Source: a virus. From it: 58,813 nt of DNA. The stretch covers positions 1 through 58,813 of the IMG/VR virus record IMGVR_UViG_3300025543_000021. One strand, given 5' to 3'. Shown piece by piece: positions 18,666 to 58,813 of the stretch. Under the pieces are notes generated by a model that saw nothing but the letters and a program-made list of their open reading frames with translations, was not told where the DNA came from and searched no databases. Made by a program: the position numbers and the translations under genes. Positions within the stretch are counted from its first letter, which is position 1. Each line of letters begins with the position of its first letter.

Positions 18666-19001
18666 ATGACCGTGTATATAGTCCAAGAAGTCCTTGGAAG
18701 AAACCTTGTCCCCGCACAAAAGTATGGGGAATTAGTTCCTTTACTCCCTGCTAGGGCTAACTTGATGCTTTCGACTGGGCCTGAAGTAAAAATGCTCAAA
18801 CGAAAACTAATAGATTTCAATGACGATGATTACCTATTATTAATAGGCGATCCTGCTGCCATTGGATTGTGCTGCGCAATAGCAGCATCCATCAACAGTA
18901 AGTTTTCTGTCCTTAAATGGGACAGGCAAGAAATGACTTACTACCCTGTATCGTTCGATATTAGGGGTAATTCAGAAGACTTAGGAGAAGTCCATGTCTG
19001 A
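18666..19001 (+). CDS. Conserved phage protein of unknown function (D-D-D-Y-L-L-L-I-G-D-P motif)
   Basis: The 111-residue product has an N-terminal Y-I-V-Q-E motif and a central D-D-D-Y-L-L-L-I-G-D-P-A-A-I-G motif, followed by K-W-D-R-Q-E. I know this arrangement as a widespread hypothetical family that opens phage early operons. A strong AAAGGAG site precedes ATG. It overlaps the next gene by 8 bases. No biochemical role can be given. Confidence 0.8.
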   Translation: MTVYIVQEVLGRNLVPAQKYGELVPLLPARANLMLSTGPEVKMLKRKLIDFNDDDYLLLIGDPAAIGLCCAIAASINSKFSVLKWDRQEMTYYPVSFDIRGNSEDLGEVHV

Positions 19002-19575
19002 AGACGATAACATACCGTTGTCCTTTGAGGAACTAACGGGTGCATCCTCTACCGAGGAATGGAACGAAACGACACTCGATAGCGAGTACGCAAAAATTAC
19101 TGAAAAAGCCATCGCCTTACAAAAATTGCAAGAAGATGTAAAAACACTGGAACACGCTTTAAAAGAAACGAAGGAAAAACTTCGTATTGTTGAAGAGCAA
19201 GAACTTCCAGAAGCTATGCAAGCCGCGAATCTACAAGAAATAAAACTTACTAATGGAGCAAAGATAACAATGTCTCAGTTCTATAAAGGTTCTATATCTG
19301 AAAAGCACCGCGAAAAAGCACATGAATGGCTTTTAAGTAACAACCACGGCGGCATTATTAAGCACGAAGTATCTTTAAAGTTCGGTAAGGACGAAGGAGA
19401 AAAAGCTAATGACGCAGTGCAAAGTCTTAAACAGAAAGGGTTAGACCCTGCTGTTAAAGAAAGTGTTCATCCGCAAACGCTAAATGCATTTGTAAGAGAA
19501 CAATTGACGAGTGGGAAAGATCTTCCTGCTGATTTATTCGGGGTCTACGTCGGATCTCGCGCCAAACTAAAATAG
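18994..19575 (+). CDS. Conserved early protein with coiled coil
   Basis: The 193-residue product has an acidic N-terminus, a coiled coil at about residues 30-75 ending in E-L-P-E-A-M, and a conserved C-terminal half with W-L-L-S-N-N, K-F-G, V-H-P-Q-T-L-N-A-F-V-R-E and L-P-A-D-L-F-G-V-Y-V-G. This is a common phage family beside SSB-like genes. A role in replication is inferred from neighbours only. Confidence 0.78.
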   Translation: MSEDDNIPLSFEELTGASSTEEWNETTLDSEYAKITEKAIALQKLQEDVKTLEHALKETKEKLRIVEEQELPEAMQAANLQEIKLTNGAKITMSQFYKGSISEKHREKAHEWLLSNNHGGIIKHEVSLKFGKDEGEKANDAVQSLKQKGLDPAVKESVHPQTLNAFVREQLTSGKDLPADLFGVYVGSRAKLK

Positions 19576-19586
19576 AGGTAACTCCA

Positions 19587-20399
19587 ATGGCTGATAAGAA
19601 AGTAGCTGAAGTATCATCTTCAGATGTAATCCCTTTTGATGACGATATGTTATCCCAAGGAACAGGGTTAGAAGAAGCGACAGCAGATGATTATGCGATT
19701 CCGTTTTTACGCATATTACAATCTATGTCCCCGCAACTTAAAAAGAGTGACGGTAAATTTATTGCTGGTGCAGAAGAAGGTAGCTTCTTTAATACTGTAA
19801 GCAACGATGTTTTCGACGGCAACGAAGGCGTTAAAATTATTCCATGTGCGTATAAGAAAAAGTATATCGAATGGATTACGCGTGAAAACGGCGGCGGTTT
19901 TGTAGACGATACTCACCCTGCTAGTATTTTAAAAGAATGTACTAAAGACGATAAAGGTCGTTTTATTCTAAAGAACGGCAACCAAATTGCTGAAACAGCA
20001 GAGTATTACTGTATTCTAGTAGAAAACGAAAACGCTCCTGAACAGGTATTGTTAAGTTTAACGAGTTCACAACTAGGGTTTTCTCGACGTTGGAATACGA
20101 TGTTAAACAATGCTCGCGTACAAAATGCGAAAGGAGAATCAGTAGCCGCTCCGATGTTTTCGTTCATTTATAACCTAACTACGATAACTCAATCTAACGA
20201 CCAGTATAGCTGGATGGGTTTATCGGTAGAAAAAGCTCGACCTACCCCGATGCCATTAGCTATGGCTGCACTTGATTTTATGAAAGCTGCCCGAGCAGGG
20301 ACAGTAGAAGTAAAACAAGAGCAAGAGGGAGCCGAATCTTCTAGCAAACCAATAGTAGAAGCAGCTGATGTTTTAGAAGGTGAAGAGATACCGTTTTAG
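19587..20399 (+). CDS. Putative single-stranded-DNA-binding protein
   Basis: The 270-residue protein ends in E-G-E-E-I-P-F, the acidic/aromatic tip typical of SSB C-termini that recruits replication partners; an I-P-F-D-D-D segment is also near the N-terminus. The core (F-L-R-I-L-Q, P-C-A-Y-K-K-K-Y-I-E-W, L-G-F-S-R-R-W) matches a common phage family often placed beside primase and polymerase genes. SSB function is inferred from the tail and the context. Confidence 0.65.
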   Translation: MADKKVAEVSSSDVIPFDDDMLSQGTGLEEATADDYAIPFLRILQSMSPQLKKSDGKFIAGAEEGSFFNTVSNDVFDGNEGVKIIPCAYKKKYIEWITRENGGGFVDDTHPASILKECTKDDKGRFILKNGNQIAETAEYYCILVENENAPEQVLLSLTSSQLGFSRRWNTMLNNARVQNAKGESVAAPMFSFIYNLTTITQSNDQYSWMGLSVEKARPTPMPLAMAALDFMKAARAGTVEVKQEQEGAESSSKPIVEAADVLEGEEIPF

Positions 20400-21940: not shown

Positions 21941-23433
21941 CATTAAAAGCAGGAGCACAGATAATCCTTGGGCCTCCAGGAACGGGTAAAACCAGTACGC
22001 TATTAGGTTTATTAGAAGAAGAATTAGATCGGGGGACTTGCCCAGAAGATATTGGGTTTTTTACTTTTACTAAACAAGCAGTACAAGAAGGCAAAAGCAG
22101 AGCGATGTCGAGGTTCTCGATAACAAAAACACAGTTACCGTATTTTAGAACATTACATTCACTTTGTTTTTTCCAATTAGGTCTATCGAAAGATAGTGTT
22201 ATGGGTTCAAGAGATATTGGTGAGTTAAACCAAAAGTTGAACCTACGACTTACCGGATCTGTAAATTCAGAAGAAGGCCATATCTCTAGTATATCGAAAG
22301 ACGACAAACTGTTGTTTATCGAAAACTTAGCTCGGATGAGACAGATAAGTTTAGAGTCTCAATGGCACGATGCCGACGATGCCGTTGGTTGGTTTGAATT
22401 AGAGAGATTTTCTAACGGATTAAAACTGTTTAAAAAAGATAGATTACTTATCGACTATACCGATATGTTGCAGTTGTTTTTAGATCGAGGCCGCGCACCT
22501 AAATTAGATGTAATGTTCGTTGACGAAGCACAGGATCTATCACCTTTGCAATGGGCGGTTGTTAGAAAGCTATGTGAATCAGCAGATAGGATTTATATCG
22601 CAGGTGACGATGACCAAGCTATTTATAGATGGGCTGGAGCAGACGTTGATTATTTGATTCGTAATTCTAAAGATGCGATGATATTAAAACAATCTTATAG
22701 AATCCCTTCTTCTGTACATACGATCGCGCAGCAGTGTATAGGACAAGTAGCTTCGAGAATCCATAAAGTTTGGGAACCTAGAAAAGAAGTAGGTCATGTT
22801 TCGTGGGAACCGTCTTACGAATCAATAGATATGGAACACGGACAGTGGTTGGTATTAGCTAGGACTAATTACTTACTAAACGGGATCGAAGAACACTGTA
22901 GATCTGAAGGTTGGTTTTATAAAAGTAAAAATAGAACCAGTGTTTCGGAGAAAAAAGTAAAAGCAGTTAAGGATTGGGAAACGCTGCGCAAGGGGGGCGT
23001 TATACCGATCATTGATCTTACCAAAGTCCTTCTTTATATGAAGATACCTGTACCTATCTCCCTAGAAAGAACCGACTTTGATAGTAATGTTTCTTTCGAA
23101 CAAGCTCAGGGTTACGTCCCAAGTTTAAAGAAAGAATATTGGTACGATTTATTCGAAGGAATCCCAGTTTCTGAGCGAAGTTATATTAGAGCGATGCTTA
23201 GACGCGGAGAAAAAATTACAAAAGACCCTCGGATTAAACTTTCTACTATCCACGCTGCTAAAGGTGGTGAAGCAGATAACGTAATTTTATTAACAGATAT
23301 ATCTAACCGGATATATAAATCATATCAACAAAACCCTGATGATGAATCGCGGGTGTTTTATGTTGGGTTAACTAGAGCAAAGGAGAACTTGTTTTTAATT
23401 GAGCCGCAAACTCAAAAATATTTCCCACTTTAG
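21937..23433 (+). CDS. UvrD/Rep-family SF1 DNA helicase
   Basis: The 498-residue product has a complete SF1A motif set: Walker A G-P-P-G-T-G-K-T (12-19), D-E-A-Q-D (196-200), G-D-D-D-Q-A-I-Y (223-230), S-Y-R-I-P (about 253-257), S-T-I-H-A-A-K-G near residue 417 and V-G-L-T-R-A-K near the C-terminus. It is shorter than cellular UvrD. Coupled to the primase by an ATGA overlap, it probably serves as the replicative or repair helicase; no DnaB-type helicase is present in the window. Confidence 0.92.
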   Translation: MTLKAGAQIILGPPGTGKTSTLLGLLEEELDRGTCPEDIGFFTFTKQAVQEGKSRAMSRFSITKTQLPYFRTLHSLCFFQLGLSKDSVMGSRDIGELNQKLNLRLTGSVNSEEGHISSISKDDKLLFIENLARMRQISLESQWHDADDAVGWFELERFSNGLKLFKKDRLLIDYTDMLQLFLDRGRAPKLDVMFVDEAQDLSPLQWAVVRKLCESADRIYIAGDDDQAIYRWAGADVDYLIRNSKDAMILKQSYRIPSSVHTIAQQCIGQVASRIHKVWEPRKEVGHVSWEPSYESIDMEHGQWLVLARTNYLLNGIEEHCRSEGWFYKSKNRTSVSEKKVKAVKDWETLRKGGVIPIIDLTKVLLYMKIPVPISLERTDFDSNVSFEQAQGYVPSLKKEYWYDLFEGIPVSERSYIRAMLRRGEKITKDPRIKLSTIHAAKGGEADNVILLTDISNRIYKSYQQNPDDESRVFYVGLTRAKENLFLIEPQTQKYFPL

Positions 23434-23436
23434 TCC

Positions 23437-23465
23437 TTTACTTTGGTAAAGTAGTAAGGTAAAGT
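23437..23465 (+). promoter_or_regulatory. Sigma-70-like promoter before the modification cluster
   Basis: TTTACT at 23437-23442, exactly 17 bp, TAAAGT at 23460-23465. It starts just behind the helicase stop codon. A TAAAGTAGTAA sequence occurs twice in tandem (23447 and 23460), which could offer an operator or a second -10. Confidence 0.6.
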
Positions 23466-23490
23466 AGTAAAACCTAGAAAGGAGAAAATA

Positions 23491-23991
23491 ATGAACATCT
23501 TTGTAACTGATCCGTGCCCTATACAAAGTGCACAAGAACAGTGTGATAAACACGTTGTTAAAATGATATTAGAGTCTGCTCAAATGTTATCTACCGCGTG
23601 GCGAGTATTTGATGATAAAGCTGCTGAAAATGCAGGAATGTATAAACAGGCTTATTTAAACCATCCGTGTACGGTATGGGCTAGAGAAGCTCAAGAAAAC
23701 TATATCTGGCTATATAACCATTTCGATGCGCTATGTACCGAATATACAGAACGCTATAACAAAAACCACGCTTCCTCAAGATTACTAGCCGCATTGTTCT
23801 GGACTCCGTTTGCACCTGAAAAACAAATAGATTTTAAAAAACAACCAGAACGCTTTGCATTAGCAATGCCTGATGAATATAAAACAGAAAATGTTTACGA
23901 TTCGTACCGTAACTATCTCATTAACGAGAAAAGTTACTTTGCTAAATGGGATAAAAATCCTTCAAGAAAACCAACATGGTGGAATAATTAA
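23491..23991 (+). CDS. Conserved phage protein (D-K-H-V-V-K-M family)
   Basis: The 166-residue product follows a strong AGAAAGGAG site. Conserved-looking blocks are D-K-H-V-V-K-M-I-L-E-S-A-Q, N-H-P-C-T-V-W-A-R and N-Y-x-W-L-Y-x-H-F. I recognise this as a widespread phage hypothetical family, frequent near nucleotide-metabolism genes, but cannot assign a reaction. The His, Cys and Asp/Lys clusters suggest an enzyme. Confidence 0.78.
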   Translation: MNIFVTDPCPIQSAQEQCDKHVVKMILESAQMLSTAWRVFDDKAAENAGMYKQAYLNHPCTVWAREAQENYIWLYNHFDALCTEYTERYNKNHASSRLLAALFWTPFAPEKQIDFKKQPERFALAMPDEYKTENVYDSYRNYLINEKSYFAKWDKNPSRKPTWWNN

Positions 23992-24854
23992 TGGCCTCTA
24001 TAAGAAAGAAGCTCGACGAAAATGTCAACGACAGTAAAAATACCCGTATGGATATTGCCAGCGGTAATATGCTAGGTAACTGGCGTCCTGACGAAATTAC
24101 TCACATGACCCGCTACGATAAAATATCGTCGTTATGTATTGAACTAGCTAAACAGCTAGGCAGACCTATCGACGTACTCGAAGCAGGGTGCGGAGAAATC
24201 TGGGTTCTTAGGAATCTCTATAAAGCCTATACCGTTAAAAAGTCCGATGTTATTCGTTCGTATCGCGGCGTAGATATTGACCCTGCGTGTCTCAATGAAA
24301 AGTCAGGTTATAGCAGCCCTACTGGATTTGTACCAGATTCAACTTGGTTCGCTAATTTTAACGGTCAGATTGATATTCAAGATTTAACGACTAACCCTAT
24401 CTTTGATATGCCCGATAACTCTGTAGACTTTTTCTGGACTACTGAAGTAATCGAACATATGGGTAGCGAGTTTATTTCAGCGTGGTTAGATGATGCGAAT
24501 AGAGTTTTACGTCCAGGAGGCTTGATTTATGTTTCCACGCCTAACCACGACGGTTCTAACGATAAGCTACCTGAAGACCACGTTTACGAATGGGGTTTCG
24601 ATGAACTTAAAAAAGAACTTACTAAAGCAGAACGACAGTGGTATTTGCAATCAGTAGTAGGAACTTTTTGCCAGATGCCTAAACTCCGAGCAGCAATGCA
24701 AAAGGATAAAGATGCTGGTACAGAGCGTTGGACTTTCGATCAGTTCAATTTACTACAAGAACGATATGGTAAACAGTTTTTGCGAGTAACGGCGGCAACC
24801 TTCTTTCCAGAAGTATCTAATAACTGCGCATGGATATTGAGAAAGAAACCGTGA
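23991..24854 (+). CDS. Class I SAM-dependent methyltransferase-like protein
   Basis: The 287-residue product has motif I D-V-L-E-A-G-C-G (61-68), an acidic motif II in G-V-D-I-D-P, the V-I-E-H segment, and L-R-P-G-G-L-I-Y-V-S-T-P-N-H after the catalytic strand. These fit the methyltransferase-11/UbiG-like fold. It begins one base inside the upstream stop (TAATGG). The substrate is unknown; a nucleotide, modified base or small molecule is possible given the neighbouring modification-type genes. Confidence 0.82.
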   Translation: MASIRKKLDENVNDSKNTRMDIASGNMLGNWRPDEITHMTRYDKISSLCIELAKQLGRPIDVLEAGCGEIWVLRNLYKAYTVKKSDVIRSYRGVDIDPACLNEKSGYSSPTGFVPDSTWFANFNGQIDIQDLTTNPIFDMPDNSVDFFWTTEVIEHMGSEFISAWLDDANRVLRPGGLIYVSTPNHDGSNDKLPEDHVYEWGFDELKKELTKAERQWYLQSVVGTFCQMPKLRAAMQKDKDAGTERWTFDQFNLLQERYGKQFLRVTAATFFPEVSNNCAWILRKKP

Positions 24855-25762
24855 ATCGTTTTATTCCCGAAGAACTAGATCGCTATACCTATTGGATAGA
24901 AGAGCGTGAGCGTATTCGGCATTTAAAGGAAGAGCTTAAACAAGACCCTCCTTGGACAGAAGACCCGATTCTTAAAGAGTTTAAGTTTTGTCAGGTTTTT
25001 CGAGAAGACGATAGAACAACTCGGTGGTTCCGCACACATATGCGAGAACCATTAAGGAATAGTCCTGATGTTTTTATGGCGACGATAGCTTTCCGTTTCT
25101 TTAATCTTATTGAAACAGGTAGAACGCTACTCGATAACAATTTACATATCGAATGGGATCGACCGAAAGCTATTGAAGAAATAAAGAAAAACCCTAAATG
25201 GATTACAGGGGCATACATTGTTAAAAGTCCTAATCGTATGGATAAGGTAACAGGCGTAACAGAATGTGTATCCCATCTCTGGGATGATAGGGAAAACATT
25301 ATTAAACAACTTGAATCGTTTACTACGTTAGAAGAAGCATGGCGGTTTTTAATGCAGTACCCGTATATCGGGCCATTCGTTTCTTACGAAATGGTTACAG
25401 ATCTCAGACATACATACCTGTTAGAAAACGCAACAGATATATGTAGTTGGGGTAATCCAGGACCAGGAGCGATGAGAGGGTTAAACAGGCTAACAGGTAG
25501 GCCGTTAGAATTTTGTAAACGATCTTGGGACTGGCATAGCGAAATGCTAGACCTGTACGATTGGTGCTCGCAAAAACTAGACCTTAGTAAACTTAATTAC
25601 CCGTTTGAAATGAGAGAAGTAGAAGGCGGGTTATGTGAGTTTGATAAATACTCTCGTATTTTAAAAGGCCAAGGTCGGACACGAAGCGTATACAACTATT
25701 CAGAAAGAAACCGTCCTTTAATCGAGGACATAGAGAATGGAGAAAGTAGATGGGAAAATTAA
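24851..25762 (+). CDS. HhH-like DNA base-modification protein (HMUDK_hel / AGPT-Pplase superfamily candidate)
   Basis: I prefer GTG 24851, which overlaps the upstream TGA (GTGA) behind GAGAAAG; an in-frame ATG lies at 24830. The helical product of about 303 residues has an F-R-F-F-N segment, T-G-A-Y-I-V, a helix-hairpin-helix-like P-Y-I-G-P-F-V-S-Y-E-M-V-T-D-L, and G-P-G-A-M-R-G-L. These match the helical domain of 5-hydroxymethyl-dU DNA kinases and thymine pyrophosphorylases. No P-loop is present, so it is not itself a kinase. It probably acts on hydroxymethylated thymine in DNA. Confidence 0.65.
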   Translation: MNRFIPEELDRYTYWIEERERIRHLKEELKQDPPWTEDPILKEFKFCQVFREDDRTTRWFRTHMREPLRNSPDVFMATIAFRFFNLIETGRTLLDNNLHIEWDRPKAIEEIKKNPKWITGAYIVKSPNRMDKVTGVTECVSHLWDDRENIIKQLESFTTLEEAWRFLMQYPYIGPFVSYEMVTDLRHTYLLENATDICSWGNPGPGAMRGLNRLTGRPLEFCKRSWDWHSEMLDLYDWCSQKLDLSKLNYPFEMREVEGGLCEFDKYSRILKGQGRTRSVYNYSERNRPLIEDIENGESRWEN

Positions 25763-25986
25763 AAGAGTTACTCGTAGATTTAGATGAAAACCATACTGAC
25801 TTTGTAATGGAGCATTATGGAATATTTCTACAAAACTGTATGAAAAACAAAGAAATGCCAAATACATGGGAAGATGCAATAAACGCGATTCATTGGGCTG
25901 CATTGTTTAACGGCAATGAGTTAGGTCGATTACAGATTCAGTACATTCTTACACAACAAACGGAGAGTCTTTATGAAAGTGATTAG
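25750..25986 (+). CDS. Small protein between modification genes
   Basis: The 78-residue acidic, helical product overlaps both neighbours (13 and 14 bases), so it is translated as part of the same operon. No motif or membrane segment is visible. Tight coupling to the putative modification genes suggests a partner or regulator, but nothing in the sequence proves it. Confidence 0.68.
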   Translation: MGKLKELLVDLDENHTDFVMEHYGIFLQNCMKNKEMPNTWEDAINAIHWAALFNGNELGRLQIQYILTQQTESLYESD

Positions 25987-27028
25987 TGCAGTTAACGTAA
26001 ACGACGCGTTAGCTAAAGGCGTTGATTTATTCAATAGTCCAATTAATTACAGGACGCAGGAAAGTCGTAATGGAACGACGATGGAAGCATTGTCTCCTGT
26101 AACTACAGTGTATAAAAAACCTTGGCAACGAGTGTTGTTTAATCAAGAACGAGACGCTAACCCTTTCTTTCATTTATATGAATCAATATGGATGTTAGCA
26201 GGATCACAAGATTTAAAAAAACTAACGCATTTTAACGCAGGAATGGCTAACTTTTCTGACGATGAGGAAACTTTAAACGGATCATATGGATACCGTTGGA
26301 GACGACAGTTCGGTTACGACCAAATACCCCGTGTTGTAAATATGTTAAAAAACGACCCCGATTCTCGCAGGGTAGTTCTTCAAATGTGGGATGGGGTTTT
26401 AGATTTAGATAGTAGTAGCAAAGACATCCCGTGTAATACAAACATCTATTTTAAAGTTCGAGATAATAAATTACAGATGACCGTTTGTAATCGATCGAAC
26501 GATATGATCTGGGGAGCGTATGGAGCTAACGCAGTTCATATGTCAGTATTACAGGAATATGTAGCCGCGAGTTTAAGCGTAGAAATGGGGCCGTATTATC
26601 AAGTAAGTGATAGTTTCCATGTCTACCAAAATAAAGAATGGGATAAAGTTAAACACTTAACCAGCGACCCGTTCAATACGTTATATAACCAAGCGATCTA
26701 CCCTGACGAACATTATCCGTTATGTAGCGACCCAGGAAACTTCATATCTGATTGCCAAAACTTTATAGAAGCAGCAGTTCCCCCTAGATATATGGCAGGT
26801 AATCCTGAATTAGTAGAAACATGGCCAGCGATATACGGGGGGTATAAAAACTATTTCTTCCCAGAAGTTTTAATACCTATGGTACAAGCCTATTTAGCAC
26901 ATAAGGATCGAAAGTATGAAAAGTGTTACGACTTTCTTGCACAAATTAAAGCTGAAGATTGGCAACAAGCCTGTGTCCAGTGGATTAAAAAACGAGAAGC
27001 TAATTGGAGAAAGAAAAATGCCTCTTGA
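25973..27028 (+). CDS. Thymidylate-synthase-family enzyme, possible dUMP hydroxymethylase
   Basis: The 351-residue product has the TS fold signatures: D-P-D-S-R-R (Arg132/133), the nucleophile in D-I-P-C-N-T (Cys154), R-S-N-D (174-177), G-A-N-A with Asn186 at the dUMP-selecting position, and S-F-H-V-Y near residue 210. The residue after the nucleophile is Asn rather than the His of cellular ThyA. Retained Asn186 argues for dUMP over dCMP. Its neighbours make 5-hydroxymethyl-dUMP synthesis plausible, but plain thymidylate synthase cannot be excluded. Confidence 0.85.
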   Translation: MKVISAVNVNDALAKGVDLFNSPINYRTQESRNGTTMEALSPVTTVYKKPWQRVLFNQERDANPFFHLYESIWMLAGSQDLKKLTHFNAGMANFSDDEETLNGSYGYRWRRQFGYDQIPRVVNMLKNDPDSRRVVLQMWDGVLDLDSSSKDIPCNTNIYFKVRDNKLQMTVCNRSNDMIWGAYGANAVHMSVLQEYVAASLSVEMGPYYQVSDSFHVYQNKEWDKVKHLTSDPFNTLYNQAIYPDEHYPLCSDPGNFISDCQNFIEAAVPPRYMAGNPELVETWPAIYGGYKNYFFPEVLIPMVQAYLAHKDRKYEKCYDFLAQIKAEDWQQACVQWIKKREANWRKKNAS

Positions 27029-27371
27029 TATTAAATGGACTGAGATGAAAAACATTGCTCAGGAGGATATTGTAAGCCTGATCGACTCAGAAAAATCTTA
27101 CGGAGATTCGTGGAAACGTAGAGGCGGTACAGGTGCTTTTATGATGTTAGCTCGGAAATTCGATAGGATCGAACAACAAGCAGAATCTTGTAACTTCGAT
27201 GTATTTAAAGCTGGGGAAAAATACGACGGAGACGACGGTATCCTCGACGATATTGGAGACCTTCGTAGGTATCTATATTTAGTCGAGCACCATATTCGTT
27301 ATGCAATAGGCGAAGAGTTATCTAGTTATTCGGAGGAAGAAAATAATGCAGATCCCTCTGATCCAACCTGA
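27018..27371 (+). CDS. Nmad1/DUF1599-like nucleotide-modification-associated protein
   Basis: I chose ATG 27018, behind GGAGAAAG and overlapping the TS stop; an in-frame ATG at 26916 would overlap TS heavily. The 117-residue product has Y-G-D-S-W-K-R-R-G-G, a basic L-A-R-K-F-D-R-I-E helix and an acidic D-D-I-G-D-L-R-R-Y helix, which match the DUF1599 pattern (YGDxW...RxxR...DxxDL). That family was named for association with base-modification operons. Function is inferred. Confidence 0.65.
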   Translation: MPLDIKWTEMKNIAQEDIVSLIDSEKSYGDSWKRRGGTGAFMMLARKFDRIEQQAESCNFDVFKAGEKYDGDDGILDDIGDLRRYLYLVEHHIRYAIGEELSSYSEEENNADPSDPT

Positions 27372-29208
27372 AAGCGATTGGATAGCTCCGCAGGTTTTAC
27401 CTCGGTTCGATCCATATGAAACATTAGCGGTCGACTTAGAAACGTATGACCCTAATTTGATTAACCGTGGGCCAGGATGGGCTACAGGTGACGGTCACAT
27501 TGTTGGGATAGCTATCGCTTCTGATACATGGTCAGGGTATTTACCAATACGGCACGAGAACGGCGGCAATCTTGAAGAGGAGATTGTTTTACGTTGGTTA
27601 AAAAGAACCTTTGAAAATCATAAAGGTACGATGGTTTTCCATAATTCACTTTACGATGTTGGTTGGTTAAAGCGTGAAGGTGTCAATCTTACTTGCCCTT
27701 TACGAGATACGATGTTTGCAGCCCCGTTACTAGATGAAAATAGACGATCATATTCGTTAAATAATTTAGGTAAGGATTTACTAGCTGAAGAAAAAGACGA
27801 AACACTGCTCGAGATGGCAGCTAAAACGTGGGGCGTTAACGCAAAGAGCGGGATGTACGCGCTCCCAGCTAAGTATGTAGGGCCGTATGCGGAACAGGAC
27901 GCAGTTCTAACCTTAAAGCTCTGGAAGCTCCTCAGTAAGCGTATAGAAGCCGAAGGGCTACAGAAAATATTCGATTTAGAATGCGACCTTATACCGTTAT
28001 TGATCGAGATGAGATGGCGCGGCGTTAGGATCGACACTAATCGAGCAGAGCAAGCCTCGGAACAATTATCTAAAAAAGAGCAGCAGCTATTAGTAGAAAT
28101 TAAACGAAGGTTCGGGATTAGTGTAGATATTTGGGCAAGTGCTTCGATACAAAAAGCATTCGACGCTAACGATATTTGGTATCCACATACCGAAAAAGGA
28201 TCTCCTAGCTTCCAAGGCCCGTGGCTAGAGTCTCACGAACACGATCTACCGAAAATGATTGTAGAAGCTCGGAGGATTAATAAAGCTCGGACTACGTTTA
28301 TCGAAGGAGCGATACTACAGTATTCCCATAACGGTCGGATCCACGCTGAAGCGCACCCACTTAAAAATGACGGCGGCGGGACAGTAACAGGTCGATTTAG
28401 TTATTCAAACCCTAATTTACAACAGATCCCTGCTCGAGACCCTGAGATCGGAAAGATGATCCGATCATTATTTATACCGGAAGAAGGCGCATCTTGGGGA
28501 GTATTCGATTACTCGCAACAAGAACCTAGGATTACGGTACATTATTCTGCGTTACTCGGATTACGAGGAGCAGCAGACGCTGTTAACGCTTATTCTAACG
28601 AAGGCGCAGATTTCCACCAGATCGTAGCAGATATGGCAGGGATACCTCGGAAACAAGCTAAGAATATAAACCTCGGACTAACCTACGGAATGGGACAGAA
28701 AAAACTAATTACTGAATTAGGACTCGATCCAGACGAAGCGTTAAAACTTCTAAATACATACCATGCAAGAGTACCTTTTATTAAAGGGATTCAAGATATG
28801 TGTTCTCGAATGGGAGAACAGCGAGGATATATAACAACATTAGGCGGTCGGAAATGTCATTTCGATCTATGGGAACCAGTCGGATATTTACACGGCGAAA
28901 AACATACTCCTTTGCCAGAGCAGGAAGCGCGAGAAAAGTATGGCGATAATTTAAAACGATCGTTTACATACAAAGCTCTTAACAAACTAATCCAAGGTTC
29001 CGCAGCTGATATGACTAAACTAGCTATGAGAGATCTCTGGAAAGAAGGAATGGTTCCGCATATAGGTATTCACGATGAACTAGATTATTCGATCTTTAAT
29101 AAAGAGCAGTCGGATATGGTGATCGATCGAATGGTTAACTGCGTAGATTTAAAAGTCCCGTTAGTTGTAGATTATGAAACAGGAATAAATTGGGGTGAAG
29201 CAAAGTAA
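27346..29208 (+). CDS. Family A DNA polymerase with 3'-5' exonuclease domain
   Basis: The 620-residue PolA has exonuclease ligands D30/E32 (D-L-E-T), D103 (N-S-L-Y-D), Y180/D184 (Y-A-E-Q-D), and polymerase motifs A D387-Y-S-Q-Q-E-P-R, B R434-K-Q-A-K-N-I-N-L442 and C H575-D-E. Leu442 corresponds to E. coli Phe762. There is no 5'-nuclease domain. It is the replicative polymerase. The start overlaps the upstream gene by 26 bases, behind GGAGGAAG. Confidence 0.96.
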   Translation: MQIPLIQPESDWIAPQVLPRFDPYETLAVDLETYDPNLINRGPGWATGDGHIVGIAIASDTWSGYLPIRHENGGNLEEEIVLRWLKRTFENHKGTMVFHNSLYDVGWLKREGVNLTCPLRDTMFAAPLLDENRRSYSLNNLGKDLLAEEKDETLLEMAAKTWGVNAKSGMYALPAKYVGPYAEQDAVLTLKLWKLLSKRIEAEGLQKIFDLECDLIPLLIEMRWRGVRIDTNRAEQASEQLSKKEQQLLVEIKRRFGISVDIWASASIQKAFDANDIWYPHTEKGSPSFQGPWLESHEHDLPKMIVEARRINKARTTFIEGAILQYSHNGRIHAEAHPLKNDGGGTVTGRFSYSNPNLQQIPARDPEIGKMIRSLFIPEEGASWGVFDYSQQEPRITVHYSALLGLRGAADAVNAYSNEGADFHQIVADMAGIPRKQAKNINLGLTYGMGQKKLITELGLDPDEALKLLNTYHARVPFIKGIQDMCSRMGEQRGYITTLGGRKCHFDLWEPVGYLHGEKHTPLPEQEAREKYGDNLKRSFTYKALNKLIQGSAADMTKLAMRDLWKEGMVPHIGIHDELDYSIFNKEQSDMVIDRMVNCVDLKVPLVVDYETGINWGEAK

Positions 29209-29716: not shown

Positions 29717-30124
29717 ATGCCAAAAGAAGCTGCTCTTTGGAGTTTAGTTAAACAACACCTACCGAAAGATGCTCATTTCCAACGGATCGAGACTGGTGGG
29801 ACGGGTCGGGGAGTCCCCGACGTAAACTATTGCCAGCAAGGGAAAGAAGTTTGGATCGAGTTAAAATCAGTTAGCGGATTAAAATCTGAAGTTAGCCCTT
29901 TCCAAATAGCATGGCTATATAACAGAGTTAAAAGCGGAGGGAATTGTTTCGTTTTAATTAGGAAAGTTAATAGCAAAGAAAAGGAGATAAAACTTTTTGA
30001 TGTAAACGGAATGACTTTAAAAGAATTAGGAGAGTTTAATTGGAAAAGCGAATCTGCGTTTACTCTACGCCCTCCTTACGAATGGGACGCGCTCTTTAAA
30101 TTCATTTTAAATTCTACGCTATAG
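29717..30124 (+). CDS. VRR-NUC-type endonuclease (PD-(D/E)XK)
   Basis: I chose ATG 29717, two bases after the upstream stop; an in-frame ATG at 29636 would overlap it heavily. The 135-residue product has G-V-P-D (Asp35) and W-I-E-L-K (Glu48, Lys50), the PD-(D/E)XK catalytic pattern of VRR-NUC domains. Size fits a stand-alone phage nuclease, probably a branched-DNA or flap nuclease acting in replication or recombination. Its TAG stop is part of the next promoter. Confidence 0.82.
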   Translation: MPKEAALWSLVKQHLPKDAHFQRIETGGTGRGVPDVNYCQQGKEVWIELKSVSGLKSEVSPFQIAWLYNRVKSGGNCFVLIRKVNSKEKEIKLFDVNGMTLKELGEFNWKSESAFTLRPPYEWDALFKFILNSTL

Positions 30125-30127
30125 TGC

Positions 30128-30156
30128 TTTACTATCGTTTTATCGGCGGTTAACCT
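30128..30156 (+). promoter_or_regulatory. Sigma-70-like promoter overlapping the nuclease stop
   Basis: TTTACT at 30128-30133, exactly 17 bp, TAACCT at 30151-30156. The TAGTGC before the -35 contains the stop codon of the VRR-NUC gene. The -10 is a weak match, but the spacing and upstream TAGTGC are shared with the other early promoters. Confidence 0.5.
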
Positions 30157-30224
30157 ATTAAAAGTAGCGCGGTGACAGCGTTACGACAAACTTAGAAAGT
30201 AGAAATAACTAAAGGAGACTACCC

Positions 30225-32005: not shown

Positions 32006-32018
32006 GTCTATATACTGC

Positions 32019-32047
32019 TTTACTTTCGCGTTAGTCTTTAGTAAAGT
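32019..32047 (+). promoter_or_regulatory. Sigma-70-like promoter before 32104
   Basis: TTTACT at 32019-32024, exactly 17 bp, TAAAGT at 32042-32047. The same -10 box and similar flanks occur at 23460 and 35054. Confidence 0.6.
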
Positions 32048-32103
32048 AGTATTTGTTGGTTATAACCAACTAGAAAGTAGAAAACCATAGAAAGGAGAAC
32101 GAA

Positions 32104-34851: not shown

Positions 34852-35027
34852 GTACGATAAGTCGGCAGAGTTTAGAAACTCTGCTGGTTTTAGCTGAAAA
34901 TGCCGAAAGTACTAAGGCATTTGAAGAACTATCCGCCGTACTTGAAGAAATACGCACCGAAGAAGAACGCCAGAAATTAAGTAACACTAGATGGTTTCTT
35001 GGTTTACTCTTCGGTACTCGGGTTTAG
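34848..35027 (+). CDS. Small helical protein (59 aa)
   Basis: ATG 34848 overlaps the upstream TGA (ATGA). The 59-residue product is helical and Glu-rich (E-E-L-S-A-V-L-E-E-I) with a hydrophobic C-terminus W-F-L-G-L-L-F-G. Its TAG stop is the first triplet of the TAGTGCTTTACT promoter element at 35025. Coupled reading frame and stop placement support it as real. Confidence 0.62.
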   Translation: MSTISRQSLETLLVLAENAESTKAFEELSAVLEEIRTEEERQKLSNTRWFLGLLFGTRV

Positions 35028-35030
35028 TGC

Positions 35031-35059
35031 TTTACTATCGGCGTAATCCTTAGTAAAGT
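35031..35059 (+). promoter_or_regulatory. Sigma-70-like promoter before 35114
   Basis: TTTACT at 35031-35036, exactly 17 bp, TAAAGT at 35054-35059, with TAGTGC directly upstream formed by the stop codon of the preceding gene. Confidence 0.6.
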
Positions 35060-35069
35060 ACTAATAACG

Positions 35070-35874: not shown

Positions 35875-36102
35875 ATGAGAAATGAAACAGGCTGGACACC
35901 TAGCGATGTAGCGCGTAGCAAAATCTTAACAGATTTGAATACCGATATATGCGTCGCAGCTAACGCATTTGAATTTAGTGATGCGTTTGAAAAACAAACA
36001 CTTAAATGCCAAATAACAATTTATAAACAATTACGATCTCGCTGGAACCACGACGACTCAGGAACAGTGGACCGACTCGAAGAAGAACTATTCCCCGCTT
36101 AG
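35875..36102 (+). CDS. Small early protein
   Basis: The 75-residue product starts at ATG behind TAGGAAGATA, one base after the preceding stop. It is helical with no motif. Its TAG stop forms the start of the next TAGTGCTTTACC promoter element. Confidence 0.65.
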   Translation: MRNETGWTPSDVARSKILTDLNTDICVAANAFEFSDAFEKQTLKCQITIYKQLRSRWNHDDSGTVDRLEEELFPA

Positions 36103-36105
36103 TGC

Positions 36106-36134
36106 TTTACCGTCGCGTAATCGCGTTTTATAAT
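36106..36134 (+). promoter_or_regulatory. Strong sigma-70-like promoter before 36201
   Basis: TTTACC at 36106-36111, exactly 17 bp, consensus TATAAT at 36129-36134. The stop codon of the gene ending at 36102 lies just upstream. Confidence 0.72.
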
Positions 36135-36142
36135 AGCCTTTA

Positions 36143-37383: not shown

Positions 37384-37694
37384 TGGATATTAACCTAGAA
37401 ACTTATTTAAAACCCGCGAAACAAGTTATCGCGATTAACCCAAAATATCAGCAGTTAGTTACAAAATACTGCGAAGCACATCGCAGAGTAGACTTTCACG
37501 TTGACTGCGCAGCTCGACTCGAAGATGACGAGACTACGATGGGTTCCGAATATTCCAAACACCTTAAAGCAGAAGAAAAGTGGCATAGCCGCGCTTGCGA
37601 AATAGAATTAGAACTGCCGCAACGAGAATTAGCGCACCTTTGGAAAGTATTCCACAACCTGATAGACGCAGAAAACTCGCGACTCTCGGCTTAG
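37383..37694 (+). CDS. Helical early protein
   Basis: GTG 37383 overlaps the upstream TAG (TAGTG). The 103-residue product is helical with several His and Cys (H-R-R-V-D-F-H-V-D-C, W-H-S-R-A-C). A metal site is conceivable. The TAG stop is again the start of a TAGTGCTTTACC promoter element. Confidence 0.62.
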   Translation: MDINLETYLKPAKQVIAINPKYQQLVTKYCEAHRRVDFHVDCAARLEDDETTMGSEYSKHLKAEEKWHSRACEIELELPQRELAHLWKVFHNLIDAENSRLSA

Positions 37695-37697
37695 TGC

Positions 37698-37726
37698 TTT
37701 ACCGTCCTTTTATCGGGGGTTATAAT
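37698..37726 (+). promoter_or_regulatory. Strong sigma-70-like promoter before 37789
   Basis: TTTACC at 37698-37703, exactly 17 bp, consensus TATAAT at 37721-37726; the gene ending at 37694 supplies the upstream TAG. Confidence 0.72.
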
Positions 37727-37736
37727 TAGCTTAACC

Positions 37737-37752
37737 GCGCCCTTACGGGCGT
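37737..37752 (+). promoter_or_regulatory. Leader hairpin followed by T-run
   Basis: CGCCC (37738-37742), loop TTAC, GGGCG (37747-37751), with a G-T pair outside, then AGGATTTTT. It lies between the promoter at 37698 and the gene at 37789, as in the other early leaders. Confidence 0.5.
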
Positions 37753-39145: not shown

Positions 39146-39730
39146 ATGAAAGACCTACAGTACACTCCGCTAACACCATCAGACGACGGCATGGGCTATA
39201 TCGACTCGGATGGTAAGAGATGGCAACCGCTAAACCCAAAGCAAAAGAAGTTCGCCAGAGAGTATTTAAAAGGCCAAAACGCTACCGAAGCAGCCGTTAA
39301 AGCAGGGTATACGAAGAATCGAGCAGCAGCCAAACGACAAGGCAGCGTCTTACTGAACCACAACCCGTTACTCCGAAACTATCTGATCGACCAGGAAATC
39401 AAGGAGGCAGAGAGGGATAGAGTTTCTATGGAGGGACACCTATCCGCGCTTCATGACTTGAGGGAAGAGGCACGCGAGTCCGGACAGATTAACGCAGCCA
39501 TTACAGCCGAGATCCATCGAGGCAAGGTCGGCGGGTTGTACATCGATCGACGCGAGGTTTTGACCGCTAAGATCGACGGACTATCCAAGGATCAGCTGAT
39601 CGATCGACTCGGAGCTTTGATCACGAAGCGCGTACCGCAAACGATCGAGGGAAGGATTACGAATCGAATCGGATCGACCGACGGATCGACTGATCGAGAA
39701 CCAGTATTAGTTGATCGAGGGATCGACTGA
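39146..39730 (+). CDS. terS: Terminase small subunit (Terminase_2 type)
   Basis: The 194-residue product has the small-terminase N-terminal HTH: L-N-P-K-Q-K-K-F-A-R-E-Y, then N-A-T-E-A-A-V-K-A-G-Y and R-Q-G-S-V-L-L. A coiled oligomerisation helix and a basic C-terminus follow. It should recognise the packaging site and bring DNA to TerL, which lies 3.9 kb away. The 3' third of the gene is built of GATCGA-rich DNA continuing past its stop, a candidate binding site. Confidence 0.88.
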   Translation: MKDLQYTPLTPSDDGMGYIDSDGKRWQPLNPKQKKFAREYLKGQNATEAAVKAGYTKNRAAAKRQGSVLLNHNPLLRNYLIDQEIKEAERDRVSMEGHLSALHDLREEARESGQINAAITAEIHRGKVGGLYIDRREVLTAKIDGLSKDQLIDRLGALITKRVPQTIEGRITNRIGSTDGSTDREPVLVDRGID

Positions 39731-39748
39731 TCGATCGATCGATCGAGC
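39545..39748 (+). repeat. GATC/GATCGA cluster at the 3' end of the small terminase gene
   Basis: I count about 16 GATC tetramers here, many as GATCGA(C/G), ending in four back-to-back GATC units at 39729-39744. The density continues into non-coding DNA, so codons alone do not explain it. It may be a pac/cos recognition site or an origin-type iteron array. Confidence 0.6.
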
Positions 39749-39839
39749 CATTGAACCAGCGACGGTGGCCGCACCCACCCACCCACCACGATTCACGGAC
39801 GGCGAGCCAGCGAGGGACGGATTGACGGAGCGGTTGAGC

Positions 39840-39960
39840 GAAACGGTTGGGATTAGCCGCGACTGATGGAAACAGTTAGGATTCGTGCTAACGAATTTGT
39901 TAAGCCGCGCCCCTTAAAGAAACAGTTTGGTTATGTGCTAACCATTTAGTTAAGGCGCGT
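39840..39960 (+). repeat. Imperfect direct repeats with conserved hairpins
   Basis: GAAAC(A/G)GTTxGG begins at 39840, 39869 and 39919. In the last two units the following stems differ in sequence but both pair: ATTCGT/ACGAAT (39881-39896) and TGGTTA/TAACCA (39928-39944), each around a shared GTGCTAAC, then T-T-x-GTTAAGxCGCG. Compensatory change points to selection for structure. Confidence 0.55.
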
Positions 39961-56353: not shown

Positions 56354-58813
56354 ATGGCAACTTACGTTAATGATTTACGCTTAAAAGAGATTGCCACGGG
56401 CGATGAAGCGGGTACTTGGGGAACGAGTACAAACACAAATTTAGAACTTATTGCTAACGCGATGGGTGTCGGTGCAGAGGCCATAGCTAACGCCAGTACA
56501 CACACTATTACGATGGCAGACGGTACAGCCGACGAGTTTAGGTCTACCTTCTTACGCCTAACGGGTGGTGGTACAGCTTGTACAGTCACACTGGCCCCCA
56601 ATACGCTATCTCATACATGGATCATGCGGAACGAAACTTCCGCCGCTTTGACGCTTACGCAAGGCTCTGGTGCCAATGTAATTATAGCTGCGGGTCAAAC
56701 TAAGATTGTAGCTACCGATGGTGCAGGATCAGGGGCTATTGTCTATGAGATGGATGACCTAGAACTTGCTGGAAATTTAGCAGTTGGCGGCGAGTTATCT
56801 ACCCCATCAGCAGGAACAAACAACGTCCGATTTGGTGTCAACGCAGGTAACTCCATAGCCTCTGGCGGCAATCAAAACGTGGTTGTGGGCGATGAAGCAG
56901 GTACGGCTTTGACTACAGGGGATGACAACGTAGCCATAGGTTTTTCGGCTTTAGCCACAGAAGATACTGGAGGTCAAAGCACAGCAGTGGGCGTTCAAGC
57001 ATTAAGGCTTCAAAATAATGATGCTGCAAATTATAATACTGCTGTTGGATACAATGCAGGTGGTTCAGTCACTACGGGAGTTAGGAACACCATCATTGGT
57101 GGTCTAGCGGGTGATGCGCTTACTGATGCGGATAACAATGTAGCTATCGGTCAAGCAGCATTGAGTTCAGACACTTTGGGAAGTAACTCAGTTGCTATTG
57201 GGCGTAATGCGTTACTGGTTCAAAACTTCACTAGTGCAACAGATACATACAACGTTGCGGTAGGTGCAGATGCAGGTGGTTCAGTCACCACAGGCGTTCA
57301 AAACACTCTCATTGGTGGTCTTGCAGGTGATGCAATAACCACAGGCAATTATAATGTTTCGCTGGGTTACGCTTCATTAGGTGGTGACACTAAAGGGTTT
57401 GGTTCGGTTGCAGTTGGGCATAGCGCCTTGTTATCTCAAAACTTCGCGACAAATACTAATGCTTACAATACTGCTGTCGGGCATGTAGCGGGAACTTCAG
57501 TCACCACGGGCGTTCAGAACACCCTCATCGGTGCTCTTGTAGGTGATGCGATGACTACAGCCAATAATAACGTAGCTTTGGGTGTGAGTGCTTTAGGGGC
57601 GACCACAACAGGTGGCTCTAACGTAGCCATTGCAGTAAACGCTTTAGGCTCAAACACTACAGGGGCAACTAACGTAGCAATAGGGCAGGACACTCTTTTC
57701 AACAACACAACAGCATCTAACAACACTGCTGTAGGCCATAACGCTATGGTCGCAAACACCACAGGCGACAGAAACGTAGCAGTAGGTACAAGCGCCCTAG
57801 ACGCTAACACTACCGCAGATGGTAACACCGCAGTCGGTTATGACTCTTTAAGCACTAACACAGGCTCTGAGAACAATGTTGCAATAGGTTTCAATGCCCT
57901 TAGGCTTTACAACAACACTAGTGGCTCTGGATACAACACAGCCGTTGGCAGTTTAGCAGGAGATCAATTAACCACCGGCGTAAACAACACCCTCATCGGT
58001 GGCCTTGCAGGTGATGCGATTACTACGGCTAATTCTGTTGTCGCTGTTGGTCTTAATGCTGCGGGAGCAACTACAACGGGCAGTAATAATGTTGCTATAG
58101 GTCAAAACGCTTTAGCGACAAATACTACTAGCACTTCCAACGTAGCTGTTGGACATGAAGCTCTTTTGACTTCAACCTCATCTAACAACACTGGTGTAGG
58201 ATTTCAGTCTTTAAGAGCAAACACCACAGCATCTAACAACACGGCAGTTGGCTATAATGCTTTACTCACAAACACCACAGGTAGTAATAATACTGCATAC
58301 GGCACCTTCACACTTGGAGTTGTAACAACGGGGACATACAACACGGCAATTGGGTATGATTCTGGTGGGCTAATTACAACAGGCTCAAAGAACACCATCC
58401 TTGGACGCTACGACGGCAACCAAGGCGGCTTAGACATCCGCACCTCAAACAACTACATCGTCTTGTCAGATGGTGATGGTAATCCAAGGCTTACTGTTAC
58501 CACAGCCGGTCAAATTGCATTTGGGACTAGTAATGGTTCAACTGATATTTCGGGCGGTACTATCGGCCTTGCATTGAATGATAATGACGGTAGACAGATG
58601 CTAGACAGTAGGACAAATTCAAGCATTAACACTTACCGTCAGAGATTTTACAATACTAATGGGCTTGTTGGTAGTATTCGCACAAACGGTTCAACAACGT
58701 TCTATGATACATCATCAGACTATCGTCTAAAAGAAAATGTCGTACCAGTTGATGATGGGATTGAGATCGTAAAACAGCTTCAGCCTAAACGCTTCAACTA
58801 TATTGCTGATCCT
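56354..58813 (+). CDS. Tail fibre with YadA-head repeats and S74 domain (3'-truncated by window)
   Basis: ATG 56354 follows the upstream stop by one base. The frame stays open for 820 codons to the edge. Residues 1-150 form a conserved base (W-G-T-S-T-N-T-N-L-E-L-I near 25-36), followed by a long N-T-A-V-G-type repeat region and the start of the S74 domain (S-S-D-Y-R-L-K). From 57111 on it is collinear with the gene at 3-1697, and its last 127 bases are identical to 1571-1697. Joined to 1698-1907 it gives an 889-residue fibre. Confidence 0.9.
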   Translation, partial: MATYVNDLRLKEIATGDEAGTWGTSTNTNLELIANAMGVGAEAIANASTHTITMADGTADEFRSTFLRLTGGGTACTVTLAPNTLSHTWIMRNETSAALTLTQGSGANVIIAAGQTKIVATDGAGSGAIVYEMDDLELAGNLAVGGELSTPSAGTNNVRFGVNAGNSIASGGNQNVVVGDEAGTALTTGDDNVAIGFSALATEDTGGQSTAVGVQALRLQNNDAANYNTAVGYNAGGSVTTGVRNTIIGGLAGDALTDADNNVAIGQAALSSDTLGSNSVAIGRNALLVQNFTSATDTYNVAVGADAGGSVTTGVQNTLIGGLAGDAITTGNYNVSLGYASLGGDTKGFGSVAVGHSALLSQNFATNTNAYNTAVGHVAGTSVTTGVQNTLIGALVGDAMTTANNNVALGVSALGATTTGGSNVAIAVNALGSNTTGATNVAIGQDTLFNNTTASNNTAVGHNAMVANTTGDRNVAVGTSALDANTTADGNTAVGYDSLSTNTGSENNVAIGFNALRLYNNTSGSGYNTAVGSLAGDQLTTGVNNTLIGGLAGDAITTANSVVAVGLNAAGATTTGSNNVAIGQNALATNTTSTSNVAVGHEALLTSTSSNNTGVGFQSLRANTTASNNTAVGYNALLTNTTGSNNTAYGTFTLGVVTTGTYNTAIGYDSGGLITTGSKNTILGRYDGNQGGLDIRTSNNYIVLSDGDGNPRLTVTTAGQIAFGTSNGSTDISGGTIGLALNDNDGRQMLDSRTNSSINTYRQRFYNTNGLVGSIRTNGSTTFYDTSSDYRLKENVVPVDDGIEIVKQLQPKRFNYIADP
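58687..58813 (+). repeat. 127-base sequence identical to 1571-1697 (right copy)
   Basis: This is the partner of the left copy. Its offset of 57,116 bases is the likely circular genome length if the two fibre genes are one locus. Confidence 0.95.

Follow-up and report, generated by a model that had tools for sequence, protein, structure and literature searches.

In phages M6 and PaMx11 (of Pseudomonas), Pam3 (of Pseudanabaena), CN1, Bhz59 and Sonora, the gene for a helical protein of the HMUDK_hel family (HEL, also termed aGPT-Pplase1) is directly preceded by a 5-hydroxymethyldeoxyuridine (5-hmdU) DNA kinase gene, with an amino acid:DNA transferase (ADDT) further upstream and a set of tailoring genes; the M6 enzyme activities as stated here rest on PMC6449724, the Pfam names and general knowledge. 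A pair comprising a thymidylate synthase (TS)-family enzyme and aG/PT-PPlase1 in HTVC023P-type pelagiphages has been read as M6-like hypermodification (PMC9599517, 2022), in a main text that makes no mention of a methyltransferase and leaves the absent kinase undiscussed. Here we examine a related cassette in the linear IMG/VR virus record IMGVR_UViG_3300025543_000021 of an uncultivated phage (58.8 kb; the whole stretch of 58,813 nucleotides is referred to as the window), in which an S-adenosylmethionine (SAM)-dependent methyltransferase (MT) gene lies directly before HEL, whereas in M6 this position is held by the kinase. On balance we favour the reading that the cassette encodes a 5-hydroxymethyluracil (5hmU)-based DNA modification in which the MT replaces the 5-hmdU DNA kinase and the ADDT. 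The three genes at its core are as follows.

23991-24854, plus strand: SAM-dependent methyltransferase (MT), the proposed decorating enzyme (PF13489, 1e-11)
24851-25762, plus strand: HMUDK_hel protein (HEL, aGPT-Pplase1), the proposed 5hmU-DNA-handling subunit (PF18723, 5.7e-40)
25973-27028, plus strand: TS-family dUMP (deoxyuridine monophosphate) hydroxymethylase, assigned by its residues Asp151, Cys154 and Asn186 (phrog_5131, 3e-109)

These profile matches, together with that of the 25973 product to PF00303 (2e-24), bear out the methyltransferase, the helical protein and the TS-family enzyme named in an earlier reading of the letters alone (the sequence-only reading). The cassette resembles those of M6, PaMx11 and Pam3 in its TS-family hydroxymethylase (42-46% identity), HEL (34-41%), the presence of the family A DNA polymerase PolA and the order of these genes, and shares with Pam3 a homologue of the gene at 27018. 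It differs from them in having neither the kinase (PF18748) nor the transferase (PF18724), and no pyridoxal phosphate (PLP), radical-SAM, flavin adenine dinucleotide (FAD), Nmad5 or HD genes. Of the elements that mark 5-hmdU-derived hypermodification of the M6/ViI/phiW-14 kind, the hydroxymethylase and HEL are thus found in the window, and the kinase and ADDT are not.

The residues of the 25973 product provide good support for a dUMP hydroxymethylase and not a thymidylate synthase (ThyA). Asp151, Cys154 and Asn186 are common to SPO1 gp29, annotated as a dUMP hydroxymethylase, and to the M6 group. Asp151 aligns with Leu143 of Escherichia coli ThyA and is also present in T4 gp42, a dCMP (deoxycytidine monophosphate) hydroxymethylase, while Asn186 occupies the position of ThyA Asn177, as in SPO1 gp29. 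Among MT-type relatives, Asp151 is retained in 79/79 and Asn186 in all 78 that are readable at this position, and the best full-length matches of the product are M6/CN1-type enzymes. That the enzyme is instead an ordinary thymidylate synthase, in a cluster devoted to nucleotide metabolism and repair, appears very improbable. Pfam and most phage records do use that name, and PMC5977210 cautions that ThyA and hydroxymethylases are hard to separate by sequence and that assignment needs enzymology; however, the product falls short of every ThyA equivalog cut-off (its best NCBIfam score is 96, where 174.55 is required), the Asp151 of SPO1 gp29 and T4 gp42 is invariant, and HEL and the TS-family enzyme are near-obligate neighbours whichever of them is used to fetch loci. 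When loci were fetched by TS similarity alone, HEL was found in 77 of 80, and the remaining three appear to be cut short of it. The product groups with the hydroxymethylases (Asp at the Leu143 position) rather than with classical ThyA and HEL falls squarely inside PF18723, which leaves the sequence-only reading of the locus as a thymine hypermodification cluster unrefuted on both points. It is very probable, as judged from these residues, that the phage makes 5hmU.

GTG 24851 is the most likely start of the HEL gene, in agreement with the sequence-only reading, because this codon overlaps the stop of the MT gene (as GTGA) and is matched by an ATG in most close relatives. Among viral folds, the confident model of HEL (predicted local distance difference test score, pLDDT, 94) is nearest to the 5-hmdU kinase helical proteins encoded by phiRSL1 and phiW-14 and to the SP10 5-hmdU DNA kinase. 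The nearest solved structures, to which the similarity is consistent though weak (best PDB match of E 0.03, template modelling (TM) score of about 0.4), are those of the PaMx11 5-PmdU glycinyltransferase and of 8-oxoguanine DNA glycosylases (Ogg) from archaea. These folds suggest that HEL may be a base-flipping DNA protein. Profile comparison with the ADDT family gave a probability of 2.7%, which rules out HEL as a sequence-detectable relative of that family, so that only the fold suggests a kinship between them.

No M6-type P-loop kinase is encoded by any open reading frame of the window, and neither ADDT nor tailoring relatives were found there. Reference kinases of six phages, a kinase profile and P-loop patterns all failed to reveal a kinase, as did a search of whole records with PF18748, and we reject an undetected kinase on these grounds. 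Both PF18748 and PF18724 are absent from all 19 MT-type records that were searched whole (the window and 18 further long contigs) and present in 5/5 kinase-type controls. The sequence-only reading had noted the missing P-loop kinase and supposed that the chemistry may differ from the known pathways; the first point is upheld across the whole record, and the second gains support from the absence of the kinase throughout the MT-type records. Elsewhere among the loci, M6-type 5-hmdU DNA kinases are annotated as 'terminase small subunit' (L003:8369-8932, L004:8381-8950, L012:5806-6372 and L013:7222-7959).

The context of HEL was surveyed in 204 distinct loci, 139 of which are flanked by 4 kb or more upstream and 5 kb or more downstream and are taken as full-context. 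These divide into 58 with an MT, 35 with a glycosyltransferase (reference PF20691, the TET-associated glycosyltransferase, TAGT), 38 with a kinase (29 of them with ADDT) and 8 with none of the three. The partner enzymes are mutually exclusive, with two of the three occurring together in 0/139 loci; independence of the labels would put the chance of never finding MT and kinase together near 1e-11, a figure that is far too small owing to the relatedness of the loci. On the HEL tree the label changes 2 times for the MT, 13 times for the kinase and 11 times for the glycosyltransferase. Some loci in the group with none carry an FkbM-type methyltransferase together with a group 1 glycosyltransferase; this pair (FkbM, PF05050) stands in place of MT, TAGT and kinase at L114:8822-11102 and in L111, L116, L117 and L118.

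The MT, HEL, the hydroxymethylase and the 27018-like protein are all kept in 58/58 full-context MT-type loci, and in nearly all MT-type loci the MT gene overlaps or abuts HEL. The glycosyltransferase type is likewise without a kinase: cassettes with PF20691 carry HEL, the hydroxymethylase and usually a 27018-like protein, as in the window, and differ from it in having the TAGT instead of the MT. A rival scheme is M6-like hypermodification in which the host, or phage proteins that escape recognition, would provide the kinase and the amino acid transferase, and the MT would act in late tailoring, for example by methylating an attached amino acid. Such a scheme accords with the shared families and order of HEL and the TS-family enzyme in M6, with the presence of two proteins without known function (the 27018 and 78-aa products, below) and with the interpretation put forward in the main text of PMC9599517. 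We nevertheless consider it quite improbable, in that the kinase and ADDT are missing from every MT-type record searched whole and every full-context MT-type locus, tailoring genes of the PLP, radical-SAM, FAD and acetyltransferase kinds are absent as well, and the glycosyltransferase type shows that HEL can do without a kinase.

The MT itself (model pLDDT 84) has fold neighbours that are mostly small-molecule methyltransferases, e.g. TleD, RebM and AtmM. No canonical DNA methyltransferase profile is matched by its sequence, with matches only of the Methyltransf_23/11/25 type, and the [DNS]PP[YFW] motif was not found in it. Retrieval by MT similarity alone yielded 78 loci in two groups, one of 41 near phage PW916 and the other of 37 resembling the window, and a hydroxymethylase is present in 74 of them (37/41 and 37/37, respectively); the four loci without one (L270, L276, L291 and L297) end about 1.5 kb or less from the MT. 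The hydroxymethylase is of the dCMP type in the PW916 group (Asp at position 186 in 39/39) and of the dUMP type in the window group; the feature common to their products is the 5-hydroxymethyl group. The MTs of PW916 and of the cultivated phage AXL3 are about 25-29% identical to that of the window (AXL3, 27%) and likewise adjoin a TS-family hydroxymethylase, but this cluster differs from the window in the dCMP-type residue, in lacking HEL and in carrying an NTP (nucleoside triphosphate) pyrophosphohydrolase, a dCMP deaminase and often a P-loop kinase-like gene. The two phages share 89.6% identity over 89% coverage (PMC9414467). AXL3 DNA is resistant to 35/37 restriction enzymes, being cut only by two with pure A/T sites (PMC7504290), a pattern that fits a modified cytosine, in line with the prediction from the dCMP-type residue. 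The TS-family enzymes of PW916/AXL3-type phages (L007:3280-4098, L008:11056-11844 and loci L260-L300) bear the annotation thymidylate synthase or deoxyuridylate hydroxymethyltransferase; in every one of them Asp occupies the position of ThyA Asn177, so that they are probably dCMP hydroxymethylases.

SPO1/SP8-type phages are known for DNA that contains 5hmU, and the SPO1 record carries an annotated dUMP hydroxymethylase. The window phage might similarly have plain 5hmU in its DNA, with the MT and HEL otherwise employed, for example on host DNA or nucleotides, and the hydroxymethylase is indeed the firmest member of the cassette. This alternative appears unlikely in view of the MT and HEL standing beside the hydroxymethylase in every full-context MT-type locus, and of the tie between MT relatives and hydroxymethylases in an unrelated phage group. 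Our analysis adds to PMC9599517 that the MT is an invariable partner, that whole records lack the kinase and ADDT, that the decorating enzymes found with HEL exclude one another and that the MT is independently linked to hydroxymethylases.

Most likely, then, this conserved gene set swaps thymine for 5hmU and the MT finishes the base. In the scheme we propose, the TS-family enzyme would form 5-hydroxymethyl-dUMP, a step well supported by its residues, which host or phage enzymes would phosphorylate and PolA would incorporate. HEL, as a DNA-glycosylase-like helical protein, would then recognise or flip out 5hmU in DNA, and the MT may modify the 5-hydroxymethyl group thus exposed, or a moiety attached to it, as its genomic context suggests; DNA modified in this way would be protected against restriction by the host. 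We regard the MT as the probable decorating enzyme of the pathway. The simplest product of the enzymes present would be 5-(methoxymethyl)uracil, an identity of the base that is possible but doubtful. A shade more doubtful is the wider proposal that these phages carry 5-(methoxymethyl)uracil, that HEL is a general 5hmU-presenting subunit coupled to an interchangeable kinase, glycosyltransferase or methyltransferase, and that the same MT family acts on 5-hydroxymethylcytosine in AXL3-type phages. No precedent for a methyl-ether DNA base was found among the open-licence papers searched, none of which brings together methoxymethyl, phage and hydroxymethyluracil; given this scope, the result is weak evidence of novelty.

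Several points weigh against replacement of the kinase and ADDT by the MT. The MT-type HEL proteins are nearly one lineage, with just the two tree changes, so that the exclusivity of the MT rests on few independent events. The role of HEL is inferred from its neighbours and from a fold match as modest as that given above, and sequence profiles give no link between HEL and the amino acid transferase. PW916-type loci hold the MT without HEL, and 24 of the 41 have a P-loop kinase-like gene, with none detected in the other 17. The MT-type phages are known from their genes, from which the chemistry is predicted, and the 27018 and 78-aa proteins could add other groups. Should the proposal hold, the HMUDK_hel family, tied to the kinase by its Pfam name, would be a common core served by different decorating enzymes, a DNA base not yet described would be predicted to arise by methylation of hydroxymethylated pyrimidines, and the TS and aG/PT-PPlase1 pairs of marine phages need not make M6-type amino-alkyl thymines.

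The remaining features of the cassette are listed below.

23431-23490, plus strand: intergenic stretch ahead of the cassette, with a promoter-like element (TTTACT-17 nt-TAAAGT) followed by a ribosome-binding site (AGAAAGGAGAA)
23491-23991, plus strand: Pyr_excise-like protein, from the family of pyrimidine dimer DNA glycosylases, which the cassette may or may not include (PF03013, 2.5e-13; phrog_624)
25750-25986, plus strand: 78-aa protein whose conservation is confined to MT-type cassettes (no Pfam assignment)
27018-27371, plus strand: small conserved protein related to Pam3_54 (blastp 8e-14; no PF07659 match)
27346-29208, plus strand: family A DNA polymerase (PolA), at the end of the cassette (PF00476, 2.4e-55)

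From the UvrD helicase side to PolA the genes form one tightly overlapped operon, in the order Pyr_excise-like protein, MT, HEL, 78-aa protein, TS-family enzyme, 27018 protein and PolA, and the coordinates of the open reading frames agree with the positions, the end-to-end overlap and the run into PolA given by the sequence-only reading. Of the two genes which that reading left as unknown, the one at 23491-23991 now has a family and recurs in 38/80 MT-type and 19/42 glycosyltransferase-type loci, whereas the one at 25750-25986 is still without a Pfam assignment but is a real gene, given that relatives of its product occur in 60/80 MT-type loci (and in none of the other types). The label Nmad1/DUF1599-like for the 27018 product had to be dropped: the single sequence does not match PF07659 (DUF1599) at E<=10, nor do any of 27 family members, and a direct PF07659 search was equally without a match. 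Its similarity is to Pam3_54, named 'nucleotide modification' by the depositors (40% over 106 aa, 8e-14). PolA has a long NCBIfam match to the DpoZ-type (aminoadenine) polymerase, yet scores 347 bits against a cut-off of 500.

A dedicated promoter before the cassette, as previously proposed, was not recovered by a sigma-70 scan, which found no consensus site at 23431-23490; what stands is a promoter-like element that is repeated before other gene blocks. It belongs to a 39-nt repeat family (23431-23469, 30122-30160, 32013-32051, 35025-35063 and 36100-36138, with a further copy of the element at 37692-37741), contains TAGTGCTTTACTATCG..., reads TTTAC[CT]-17 nt-TAAAGT or TATAAT and is followed by TAGAAAGGAGAA ribosome-binding sites. 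The element may represent a phage-specific promoter class.

Comparison of the large terminase subunit (TerL, 50-58%) and PolA (48-53%) places the window in the HTVC023P-type podovirus lineage, with HTVC023P, HTVC027P and 023Pt_psg01 as the nearest relatives for both proteins; the phage is kin to ocean viruses of SAR11. The HTVC023P-type pelagiphages share with it the two gene families and their place near PolA. The cassette is absent at the corresponding place in 4 related phage records, and a search of phage records for closely similar DNA gave no match. The genome appears almost complete, though unclosed. Both window ends (1-1907 and 57900-58813) fall within tail-fibre genes whose S74-like chaperone ends are nearly identical, and the last 100 bases are repeated exactly inside the first 3 kb. 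Three adjacent proteins at 18666-20399 match Pfam families named after Pam3 gp32, gp33 and gp34, which makes the block upstream of the primase common with cyanophage Pam3. Finally, direct repeats rich in GATCGA at 39542-39957, including a 50-nt tandem repeat at 39858-39957, overlap and then follow the small terminase gene and are possibly a packaging or origin site.

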